Positions 19,643 through 25,576 of a stretch of DNA of 64,000 nucleotides are shown here, piece by piece. Source of the stretch: Nocardia asteroides. GTDB lineage: Bacteria > Actinomycetota > Actinomycetes > Mycobacteriales > Mycobacteriaceae. The number at the start of each line of letters is the position of its first letter. Position 1 is the first letter of the stretch. The notes beneath the pieces were generated by a model. It saw nothing but the letters and a program-made list of their open reading frames with translations, searched no databases and had not been told where the DNA came from. Location of the stretch: NCBI GenBank assembly GCA_019930625.1, contig CP082844.1, forward strand, positions 4,774,001 to 4,838,000, read 5' to 3'. The translations under genes were made by a program, and so were the position numbers.

Positions 19643-20512
19643 TCAATCGGGGTGGAAGGCGTCGGAGCCGACCTCGGCGGGGTCGAGCAGATGAGTGAGG
19701 AACAGGCGGGTGGTCGGCGTCGGGGTCCGGGTGGTGACGGCATGCCACGGGCGGTCCAGCGGGGTGCCGTCGACCGGCAGGACGCGCAGCACACCGTTCG
19801 CCAGGTCCTGCGAGATGGCGTCGCTGTGAATCAACGTGACGCCCAAGCCTTCTCGTGCGGCGGCCAGGACGGCGCCGTGTGATCCGAGGGTGAGCGTGGA
19901 CGGTTCGATCCTGAGCCGGTCGAGCAGGCCGAGGGTGGCCTCGCGGGTGCCGGAGCCCCGGCCGCGCAGCAGCCATGTGGCGTGCAGGGGATCGAGTTCC
20001 GGCAGACCGACCACGACCAGGCGGCTGGGGCGCCGGGCGCGCACCACCAGTCCGGTGTCGCGCGGTGGACGGCCCGCGATGACGAGATCCGTTTCGTGGT
20101 GCTGCAATTCGAGGAACAGCGCGTCACGCGGGTGCACCGACAGGCTCAGCTCGATGTCGGGGAACCGGCGGCGGAACGTTGCGAGCGGACGCAGCAGGAC
20201 GTATTCCCCCGCGGTGGCGACCACGCCGATGCGCAGGCGCCCGGTCTCGGCCCGGCGAACGGCGGCCTGCGCCTCCTTCATCAGTCCGAGGATGCCGCGG
20301 CAGTACTCGGCGTAGACGCGACCGGCTTCGGTGAGGGCGATGCCGCGCCCGGATTTCGCGATGAGCTTGGCGCCGAGCTGTTTCTCGATGTGCGCGACGG
20401 CCGCGGAGACGGCGGCCTCGGTGATGTGCAGCTGCGCCGCGGCCCGGCGAATACTGCCCTGGCGGGCGACGGCCAGGAAGGTTTCCATCCGAGCCGCGCT
20501 CACCATACCCAT
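19643..20512 (-). CDS. cbbR: LysR-family regulator of the CBB operon
   Basis: The 289-residue protein has a LysR winged-helix N-terminal domain ([43 protein letters not shown]) and a periplasmic-binding-like effector domain ([59 protein letters not shown]). It is divergent from cbbL, the classic CbbR position, and a palindrome lies between them. CbbR activates cbb genes in response to metabolites such as RuBP or NADPH. The name rests on context as much as sequence, since LysR subfamilies are hard to tell by eye. Confidence 0.9.
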
Positions 20513-20556
20513 CGGACGACGGTAACAAACTCAATGAATTGGTTGGGTATTGCGAG

Positions 20557-20573
20557 AAACAATCAAATTGTTT
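20557..20573. promoter_or_regulatory. Putative CbbR operator
   Basis: AAACAAT-CAA-ATTGTTT is a perfect 7-bp inverted repeat with a 3-base spacer in the cbbR-cbbL intergenic region, in a locally AT-rich patch. It contains a T-N11-A arrangement as expected for LysR-type binding sites. A second imperfect symmetrical block (AATGAATT, 20534-20541) is nearby and may be a further half of the site. Confidence 0.6.
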
Positions 20574-20662
20574 GTCGGTGTCCGCCCCGTCATCCTGGAA
20601 ATCCCAAGGCACGCCCGTTCGCCCGGGTGCGGGTGTCCCGCAGTGGCACAGCAGGAGGAACC

Positions 20663-23554: not shown

Positions 23555-23569
23555 CGAGATCGAGGCGTT

Positions 23570-24685
23570 GTGCCAGAAGGACTGAAAACCCTCACCCGCT
23601 ACACCATCGAGCAGGAACACCGGCATCCCGGATCATCCGGTGAGTTCTCCGCTTTGGTGAACGTGATCGCGACCGCGACGAAGATCATCGCCAATCAGGT
23701 CACCCGGGGTGCGATCGCCGGTTCGCTCGGCGCGGTGATCGATCCCGCCCTGCTCCCACCCGGCGATCCGGACCCTTCACCACCGACCGTGCACCGCGAG
23801 CTGGACGCGATCACCAACGACATCATGGTCGCCGAAACCCAGTGGACCGGACATCTTTCGGCGCTGCTGTCCGAACAGATCAGCGAGATCCATCCGGTGC
23901 CCGACGCCCATCGGCGGGGGAAGTACCTGCTGGCGTTCGATCCCCTGGACGGTTCGTCGAACATCGACGTGAACCTGCCGGTGGGCACGATCTTCAGCGT
24001 GCTGCGTGCGCCGGCGCGTAGCAAGGATGGCCAGAAGCCCCCGGCGGCCGTCGATTTCCTCCAGGCGGGCGTCGAACAGGTGTGCGCGGGCTTCACCCTG
24101 TACGGGCCTGCGACGATGCTGGTGCTGACGACCGGCAACGGGGTGGACGGGTTCACCCTGGACCGCGAGATCGGCGCGTTCGTGCTGACCCACCCGCGGA
24201 TGCGCATCCCCGAGGACACCTCCGGTTTCGCGATCAACGCGGCCAACGAACGGTTCTGGGAGCGGCCGGTGCGCCGCTACGTGCACGAGTGCCTCGACGG
24301 TGTCGACGGCCCGCGCGAGCGGGATTTCAACATGCGCTGGGTTGCCTCGCTGGTCGCCGACACCTTCCATATCCTCACCCGCGGCGGGGTCTACCTGTAT
24401 CCGCGCGACACACGCCCGCCTGCGCGTCCGGGCCGGGTGGCATTGCTCTACGGCGCCAACCCGATCGCGTTCATCGTCGAACAGGCCGGCGGCGCGGCGA
24501 CTACCGGCAGCGAGCGGGTGCTGGAGGTGGCGCCGGACGACGTCCACCAGCGGGTGCCACTGATCTTCGGTTCCCGCAATGAAGTGGAGCGCATCGTGCG
24601 GTATCACCGCGAACCCGACGAGGGCCCCAGCTTCGACAGCTCGCTGTTCGGAACGCGGTCTCTGTTTCGTCCGGCCAGGCGCTGA
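23570..24685 (+). CDS. fbp: Class I fructose-1,6-bisphosphatase
   Basis: The 371-residue protein is a class I FBPase, with the metal-binding motif LLAFDPLDGSSNIDVNLPVGTIF, NMRWVASLVADTFHILTRGG and LLYGANPIAFIVEQAGGAATTGSERVLE. Actinobacteria usually rely on a class II (GlpX) enzyme for gluconeogenesis, so a class I copy within the cbb operon is best read as Calvin-cycle specific; it may also act on sedoheptulose-1,7-bisphosphate. The start is GTG at 23570, 15 bases after cbbX, and prk follows 12 bases after its stop. Confidence 0.95.
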   Translation: MPEGLKTLTRYTIEQEHRHPGSSGEFSALVNVIATATKIIANQVTRGAIAGSLGAVIDPALLPPGDPDPSPPTVHRELDAITNDIMVAETQWTGHLSALLSEQISEIHPVPDAHRRGKYLLAFDPLDGSSNIDVNLPVGTIFSVLRAPARSKDGQKPPAAVDFLQAGVEQVCAGFTLYGPATMLVLTTGNGVDGFTLDREIGAFVLTHPRMRIPEDTSGFAINAANERFWERPVRRYVHECLDGVDGPRERDFNMRWVASLVADTFHILTRGGVYLYPRDTRPPARPGRVALLYGANPIAFIVEQAGGAATTGSERVLEVAPDDVHQRVPLIFGSRNEVERIVRYHREPDEGPSFDSSLFGTRSLFRPARR

Positions 24686-24697
24686 AGGAGGAGCACC

Positions 24698-25576
24698 ATG
24701 TCGGTCAAGCATCCCGTCGTCGCGATCACCGGGTCCTCCGGTGCCGGGACCTCCAGCGTGACACGGACATTCCAGGAGATATTCCGCCGTGAAGGCATCA
24801 GCGCGGCCATCATAGAGGGCGATTCGTTCCACCGTTACGACCGCAACGAGATGAAATCGGCGATGGCCGAGGCCGAGCAGAACCGCAATCTGCGGTTCTC
24901 GCATTTCGGTGAGGAGGCCAATCTGCTGAAGGAGTTGGAGACGCTGTTCCGTGACTACGGCGAGACCGGCGTCGGGACGGTGCGCCGATACCTGCACGAC
25001 GAGGCCGAAGCCAAGCCGTACGGCCAGCCGCCGGGCACCTTCACCCCGTGGGAGGAATTGTCGCCGGGCAGTGACCTGCTGTTCTACGAGGGCCTGCACG
25101 GCGCCGCGGTCACCTCCACCGTGGATGTGGCCCGGCATACCGATCTGCTGGTCGGCGTGGTGCCCATCATCAACCTGGAGTGGATTCAGAAGGTGATCCG
25201 GGACAAGACCGAGCGCGGTTACTCCAGCGAGGCCGTGATCGACACCATCCTGCGGCGGATGCCGGACTACGTGACCTACATCTGCCCGCAGTTCTCCCGC
25301 ACATATGTCAACTTCCAGCGGGTGCCGACGGTGGACACGTCCAATCCGTTCATCGCGCGCACCATTCCGACGGCGGACGAGAGTTTCGTGGTGATCCGGT
25401 TCGCCGAGCCGAAGGTCATCGACTTCCCCTATCTGCTGTCGATGCTGCACGACTCGTTCATGTCGCGGACCAATTGCATCGTGGTGCCCGGCGGCAAGAT
25501 GGAGCTGGCCATGCAGCTGATCTTCACCCCGCTGATCCTGCGATTGATGGACAAGCGGCCGAAACGCTCGTGCTGA
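24698..25576 (+). CDS. prk: Phosphoribulokinase (class I, bacterial type)
   Basis: The 292-residue protein phosphorylates ribulose-5-phosphate to the RuBisCO substrate RuBP. It has the P-loop AITGSSGAGTSSVTRTF, the segment IIEGDSFHRYDRNEMK, the Walker-B-like LLFYEGLHGAAVT, and the C-terminal FPYLLSMLHDSFMSRTN with GGKMELAMQLIFTPLI of bacterial octameric PRKs. AAGGAGG precedes the ATG. It is the last gene of the cluster and converges with dinB 41 bases away. Its presence with cbbLS makes the RuBP cycle functional in principle. Confidence 0.96.
   Translation: MSVKHPVVAITGSSGAGTSSVTRTFQEIFRREGISAAIIEGDSFHRYDRNEMKSAMAEAEQNRNLRFSHFGEEANLLKELETLFRDYGETGVGTVRRYLHDEAEAKPYGQPPGTFTPWEELSPGSDLLFYEGLHGAAVTSTVDVARHTDLLVGVVPIINLEWIQKVIRDKTERGYSSEAVIDTILRRMPDYVTYICPQFSRTYVNFQRVPTVDTSNPFIARTIPTADESFVVIRFAEPKVIDFPYLLSMLHDSFMSRTNCIVVPGGKMELAMQLIFTPLILRLMDKRPKRSC

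Follow-up and report, generated by a model that had tools for sequence, protein, structure and literature searches.

An intact Calvin-cycle operon of putative form IE type in Nocardia asteroides, probably old in the genus and not associated there with hydrogenase or form I CO dehydrogenase

The window, by which we mean the whole stretch of 64,000 nucleotides analyzed here from contig CP082844.1 of Nocardia asteroides, has a GC content of 68.7%; the host genome consists of 2 contigs totaling 7.4 Mb. An intact cbb operon of six genes lies at positions 19643-25576, in which cbbL, cbbS, cbbX, fbp, and prk follow one another and a gene for a LysR-type regulator is divergently oriented (Table 1). 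All of the reading frames, the start codons of which were picked from open frames and ribosome-binding sites, are open, and the spacing is tight; cbbX begins 11 bp before the end of cbbS, and the gaps between cbbX and fbp and between fbp and prk are 15 bp and 12 bp, respectively. The original prediction, made from the DNA alone, of a compact and undisrupted operon with a divergent cbbR was thus borne out. No RNA family was detected in the window at the gathering threshold of Rfam.

Table 1. Features of the cbb locus and its neighbors (positions are those of the window).
Feature	Position	Strand	Remarks
LSDAT (SLOG in TRPM) domain gene, prokaryotic	18788-19627	-	15 bp beyond cbbR, same strand
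cbbR, LysR-type regulator (named from domains and position)	19643-20512	-	Pfam PF00126 and PF03466; divergent from cbbL
cbbR-cbbL intergenic region	20513-20662	.	150 bp; palindrome at 20557-20573
cbbL, red-type RuBisCO large subunit	20663-22105	+	Pfam RuBisCO large N and C; putative form IE by tree position
cbbS, RuBisCO small subunit	22126-22548	+	Pfam RuBisCO small; structure matches 25hn, 1bxn
cbbX, red-type RuBisCO activase	22538-23554	+	Pfam AAA and lid; structure match 3syk
fbp, class I fructose-1,6-bisphosphatase (FBPase)	23570-24685	+	GTG start; Pfam FBPase N and C; 7k74
prk, phosphoribulokinase (PRK), bacterial 290-residue kind	24698-25576	+	Pfam PRK; 1a7j-like
DNA polymerase IV gene, outside the operon	25618-27030	-	Conserved downstream landmark of the locus

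CbbL, FBPase, and PRK scored 751.6, 435.7, and 499.2 bits against the NCBIfam models for the RuBisCO large subunit, class 1 FBPase, and PRK (cut-offs of 438, 349, and 362, respectively), and their best solved relatives are the large subunit of the red-type RuBisCO 1bxn, the class I FBPase 7k74, and the phosphoribulokinase 1a7j. CbbS can be aligned with the small subunits of 25hn and 1bxn up to residue 138 of 140. CbbX matches the solved CbbX 3syk (4.8e-107) and reaches 452.8 bits with the NCBIfam CbbX model, just under the cut-off of 459.25; with this slight shortfall, the operon is a complete red-type one including its activase, as had been proposed. The motifs of the catalytic and carbamylation residues, also noted beforehand, are all present in CbbL; the catalytic residues are those that we take to be E60, T65, N123, K175, K177, K201, D203, E204, H294, R295, H327, K334, and S379 in the spinach numbering. 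Since relatives of the window CbbL are encoded at 110 fetched loci, CbbL is not a product of chance. The operon encodes RuBisCO and PRK together, the combination by which a Calvin-cycle operon is recognized. The cycle enzymes covered here were RuBisCO, PRK, and class I FBPase in the operon and the class II GlpX, which is encoded elsewhere in the genome; transketolase, aldolase, and the other enzymes would presumably be supplied by central metabolism. No 2-phosphoglycolate phosphatase exceeded the curated cut-off in the genome, but this is a weak test, as the same model exceeded it in only 1 of 14 control genomes.

Family membership and residues together support a RuBisCO of the carboxylating kind. 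We regard it as exceedingly improbable that CbbL is a non-carboxylating RuBisCO-like protein or that the operon is decaying, as the form I model gave 751.6 bits against 109.7 and 80.4 bits for the enolase-type RuBisCO-like models, the catalytic motifs are present, the frames are open, and the dN/dS values (see below) are far below 1. The model scores and the motifs led us to reject the RuBisCO-like protein; what speaks for decay comes from other genomes of the genus, of which two have prk relics (see below) and a third, G058 (L247), has its cbbL spread over two frames. In G058, cbbR, cbbS, cbbX, fbp, and prk match nearly at full length, and the split is either early decay or a draft error.

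The regulator scored 127 bits against the NCBIfam CbbR equivalog (cut-off of 450) and thus falls outside the curated CbbR family. The name cbbR is based on the LysR domains and the gene position, and the product is best filed as a putative LysR regulator in the cbbR position. The divergent arrangement is preserved in many related loci. Between cbbR and cbbL, we found the palindrome AAACAAT-CAA-ATTGTTT. In an intergenic alignment of 38 loci (42 were chosen, of which one had no cbbR match and three were dropped for length), its right half ATTGT is conserved in at least 95% of the loci, and a second conserved stretch lies upstream of this half. The palindrome is a probable candidate for the CbbR site, to which the regulator would bind. 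The LSDAT gene lies beyond cbbR at a spacing as if the two were co-transcribed. Its relatives were detected in 3 of the 98 genus genomes introduced below, and it adjoins cbb genes only in this strain. We considered the LSDAT protein as a nucleotide-sensing partner of CbbR and rejected this idea, as the other two relatives are not beside prk.

The CbbL tree contained 110 sequences, of which 30 were from the loci found in the genus search and 80 from named contigs (the best 80 of at least 589 relatives), and was composed without form IA, IB, and ID sequences. All of the 35 Pseudomonadota sequences fell on one side of a branch with a support of 100. The 40 sequences of the genus other than that of Nocardia alba formed a clade with a support of 99 in the actinobacterial part, in which the sequences from the genus genomes interleave with, and in places are equal to, those from named Nocardia contigs. 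The Nocardia clade was joined by Antrihabitans and an Aeromicrobium metagenome-assembled genome with a support of 84, i.e., under 95. CbbL thus belongs to an actinobacterial clade apart from the proteobacterial form IC. The accessible texts of PMC12999727 and PMC9561532 call this actinobacterial clade form IE, and we apply the label to the window CbbL by its tree position among taxa so termed, i.e., as a putative assignment. In the PRK and FBPase trees (49 and 25 sequences, respectively; those with coverage below 80% or with stops were left out), the window proteins are represented by near relatives, such as those of Nocardia niwae (96% identical in PRK and 91% in FBPase). Named Nocardia grouped with Antrihabitans with a support of 97 for PRK and 99 for FBPase, apart from Pseudomonadota in both trees. 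The phylogenetic check that had been suggested for CbbL, FBPase, and PRK thus gave an actinobacterial placement three times.

These trees bear on the proposal that the operon was horizontally acquired. The fbp-prk order and the class I FBPase are reminiscent of proteobacterial cbb operons, and the presence of the operon is patchy in the family; PRK was found in 26 of 301 sampled genomes, namely in 17 of Nocardia and in 9 belonging to five other genera. Nevertheless, the support-100 branch sets all of the Pseudomonadota CbbL sequences to one side, the PRK and FBPase trees agree with the CbbL tree, and the identity to this strain follows that of gyrB for both CbbL (Spearman 0.65; 41 genomes) and PRK (Spearman 0.56; 70 genomes). 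A recent acquisition, for instance from Pseudomonadota, is therefore very improbable, and for the lineage of this strain it is contradicted by the three trees. The proposal also fits poorly, as a recent event, with the occurrence of the operon in 71 of 98 genus genomes and with the prk relics in two that lack it. A transfer that predates the origin of the genus may have taken place.

The 98 Nocardia genomes were evenly drawn from a larger group and are mostly drafts; 96 of them are at least 90% complete. A full PRK was detected in 71, and a class I FBPase exceeded the cut-off in the same 71, while the remaining 27 possessed neither (two weak FBPase matches, as well as the PRK pieces present in two genomes, were scored as absent). 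The class I FBPase inside the operon had been singled out as unusual, and in the 98 genomes this enzyme exceeded the cut-off only alongside a full PRK. CbbL was searched for in 59 of the 98 genomes and found in 43, all the PRK-bearing ones. When mapped on the gyrB tree of the 98 genomes, the presence of cbb genes required 13 changes, 12 of them forced by supported branches; these counts come from a single-gene tree and carry no direction. As a separate observation, G119, G017, G133, G058, and G116 possess a second full-length gyrB-like gene that is 81-88% identical to gyrB of this strain, and several other genomes have a further gyrB-like copy matched in two pieces.

Two of the 27 genomes without the operon retain prk relics near the polymerase IV gene, which are a piece of 27 residues approximately 1.2 kb from this gene in G127 and two short overlapping pieces approximately 4.2 kb from it in G055. 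Among 11 named Nocardia loci, five are flanked by both polymerase IV (downstream) and nuo genes (upstream), two have nuo alone, and four have neither in reach, some of them due to contig ends. No nuo gene was found in the window although polymerase IV adjoins the operon, suggesting that the upstream side has been rearranged in this strain. Altogether, we consider the operon to be old in Nocardia and to have been lost repeatedly. The direction of the changes is our reading of the pattern, and part of the 13 could be gains.

Transfer does occur in the genus. In G031 and G045, PRK is 72% identical to that of this strain though gyrB is approximately 91.5% identical, and CbbL of N. alba (L046) groups with that of Mycobacterium aquaticum with a support of 95. 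The divergent cbb versions of these three members were probably introduced by transfer that replaced the original one. In N. alba, prk lies approximately 8 kb upstream, outside the operon. Besides its usual CbbL (94% identical), G056 encodes a second CbbL (75% identical) on contig C160 at 2019-3425.

The original prediction named H2, CO, or formate as possible electron donors. Of these, H2 is plausible, as two [NiFe]-hydrogenases, an actinobacterial-type and a group 3b-like one, are encoded in the genome. The large subunit of the former scored 1067 bits against the solved hydrogenase 5aa5, and the next best match reached 163 bits; we take 5aa5 to be the actinobacterial-type hydrogenase of Cupriavidus necator, and enzymes resembling it presumably bear the label group 1h. 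HypF and a maturation protease, both over their cut-offs, are encoded beside this hydrogenase, approximately 0.7 Mb from the cbb operon. The second set resembles sulfhydrogenase alpha, beta, gamma, and delta, all of which fell below the NCBI equivalog cut-offs. It is located at 3421-12000 of L112 (C1, approximately 5.93 Mb), includes a small regulator-like gene, and is surrounded by proteins resembling universal stress proteins by sequence. The part of the prediction concerning CO and formate did not hold for the enzymes searched. No form I CO dehydrogenase (CODH) exceeded the cut-off in the genome (the best CoxL-like protein scored 371.5 bits against 991), nor did any formate dehydrogenase of TIGR01591 (508 against 666), and we therefore dropped both as donor enzymes in this strain. 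The CoxL-like protein, a molybdenum protein encoded at 5745-8057 on the minus strand of L113 (C1, approximately 5.97 Mb), scored 937.7 bits with the NCBI model for group 5 aerobic CODH, just below the cut-off of 950. With a putative form IE RuBisCO and a 5aa5-like hydrogenase, the strain appears to carry the genotype of atmospheric chemosynthesis, i.e., form IE RuBisCO plus a high-affinity hydrogenase or form I CODH.

The question is then whether the operon is kept for atmospheric chemosynthesis, in which trace H2, and CO in addition, would be oxidized by high-affinity enzymes as proposed for desert soil actinobacteria. The hydrogenase of this genome, with its wide gap between the first and the next best match, favors this reading, as does the literature. 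The accessible text of PMC9561532 deduces trace-gas chemosynthesis from the joint presence of form IE RuBisCO and a hydrogenase or CODH in 92 isolate genomes, and its examples include cited species papers on Nocardia amamiensis, N. aurea, N. altamirensis, and N. vaccinii. In the accessible part of PMC7895386, domains of fructose-bisphosphatase and hydrogenase are reported to accompany the Calvin cycle across the full set of genomes. This enrichment on the scale of all genomes runs against what we found in the genus, for which [NiFe]-hydrogenase, form I CODH, and the formate dehydrogenase of TIGR01591 were searched. A strong hydrogenase match was found in 34 of the 71 genomes with cbb genes and 16 of the 27 without (Fisher p = 0.37), any [NiFe]-hydrogenase match in 41 and 19 (p = 0.35), form I CODH in 8 and 3 (p = 1), and TIGR01591 over the cut-off in 5 and 1, respectively. 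Kinship-corrected pairs gave no link between cbb genes and hydrogenase either (median p of 1, with only approximately 4 informative pairs). As 29 of the 71 genomes with cbb genes have neither a [NiFe]-hydrogenase match nor form I CODH, we regard retention of the operon for atmospheric chemosynthesis as rather unlikely, and the lack of association led us to discard hydrogenase or CODH as the genus-wide reason for retention.

A possible alternative, which we hold only tentatively, is that the cycle serves mainly as a redox sink or for re-assimilating respired CO2 during growth on reduced substrates, for which a lithotrophic donor would be unneeded. Of the 29 genomes above, only 2 have the formate dehydrogenase of TIGR01591, leaving 27 without any of the three donor enzymes. 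The dN/dS values of cbbL, calculated for seven groups covering 21 of 30 loci, were 0.019, 0.056, and 0.042 in three donor-less groups (9 genomes), compared with 0.009-0.037 in the four groups that bear a hydrogenase (12 genomes). Although two of the donor-less values exceed every value of the latter four groups, all seven are far below 1, implying that RuBisCO is still under selection in genomes with neither hydrogenase nor form I CODH. For cbbX, dN/dS ranged from 0.10 to 0.16. On the other hand, the search covered three donor enzyme types, and methanol, sulfur, ammonia, or monomeric formate dehydrogenase may provide other routes; aerobes usually have O2 to take up surplus electrons, which lowers the need for a sink; and draft genomes may miss genes.

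The genes, residues, phylogeny, distribution, relics, and purifying selection described above are best explained, in our view, by a working CBB operon under the control of CbbR that is old in the genus and has been lost repeatedly, and that probably serves facultative mixotrophic CO2 fixation in this strain; CO2 fixation, its donor, and switching by CbbR are the predicted parts of this explanation. In the mixotrophic scheme, a putative form IE RuBisCO with its CbbX activase would act together with PRK and a dedicated class I FBPase, the latter two turning the pentose-phosphate and gluconeogenic background into a cycle, and CbbR would control the operon. The reducing power would come from NAD(P)H of heterotrophic metabolism, supplemented during starvation by H2 that the actinobacterial-type hydrogenase takes up, and across the genus the operon would be bound to none of the tested donor enzymes. 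We further put forward, as a conjecture we would not yet favor, that the Calvin cycle in Nocardia is ancestral to the genus and has been selected mainly for a role other than lithoautotrophy on H2 or CO, for instance to keep the redox balance or to re-assimilate CO2 during aerobic heterotrophic life. If this is true, a chance co-occurrence of form IE RuBisCO and hydrogenase in this genus would be over-read when trace-gas chemosynthesis is deduced from it.

Published work connects form IE RuBisCO with soil bacteria for which a partial reliance on trace gases has been claimed, but CO2 fixation has been demonstrated in few of its carriers; according to the accessible part of PMC12999727, form IE was found in 61 culture-collection strains, of which 2 were shown to fix CO2, and [NiFe]-hydrogenase in 33 of 54. 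As Nocardia species naturally differ in RuBisCO and hydrogenase, and approximately 12 independent pairs with and without cbb genes are available on the gyrB tree, parallel cultures offer a test of the role that form IE RuBisCO plays in aerobic members of the actinobacteria. Judging from the accessible parts of the prior form IE papers, the cbb gene set was already known in Nocardia; many of the form IE sequences in PMC12175532 are attributed to Nocardiaceae, while the word 'Nocardia' is absent from the main text of PMC12999727 as far as accessible. No genus-wide survey of cbb loss in Nocardia was found in the literature within reach, from which subscription papers were mostly missing. We regard as new the exact pairing of class I FBPase and PRK, the loss pattern including its relics, and the finding that cbb genes in the genus are not associated with hydrogenase or form I CODH. 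The gene set itself is of a known kind, and the interesting part is the missing link between cbb genes and the enzymes for H2 and CO.

Among the known systems close to the operon of this strain, those of N. niwae (L031) and N. amamiensis (L032) have the same genes in the same order, with CbbL 99% and 97% identical, respectively, and PRK 96% identical to those in the window. Both differ from the window in possessing nuo genes 5-6 kb beyond cbbR and in having no LSDAT gene. The solved hydrogenase 5aa5, of presumed C. necator origin, is by far the best match of the hydrogenase large subunit of this genome. The form IC operons of Bradyrhizobium and other Pseudomonadota also comprise cbbR, fbp, prk, cbbL, cbbS, and cbbX; in contrast to the window, fbp and prk lie upstream in these operons, approximately 4 kb before cbbL, and the identity to the window is 74-77% for CbbL and 40-52% for FBPase. 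As far as PMC9561532, PMC12999727, and PMC12175532 are accessible, the form IE operons of Actinomycetota are alike in the red-type CbbL of the actinobacterial clade, the heterotrophic soil hosts, and the presence of hydrogenase in many carriers; Nocardia differs from them in that, across the genus, cbb genes are not associated with hydrogenase or form I CODH.
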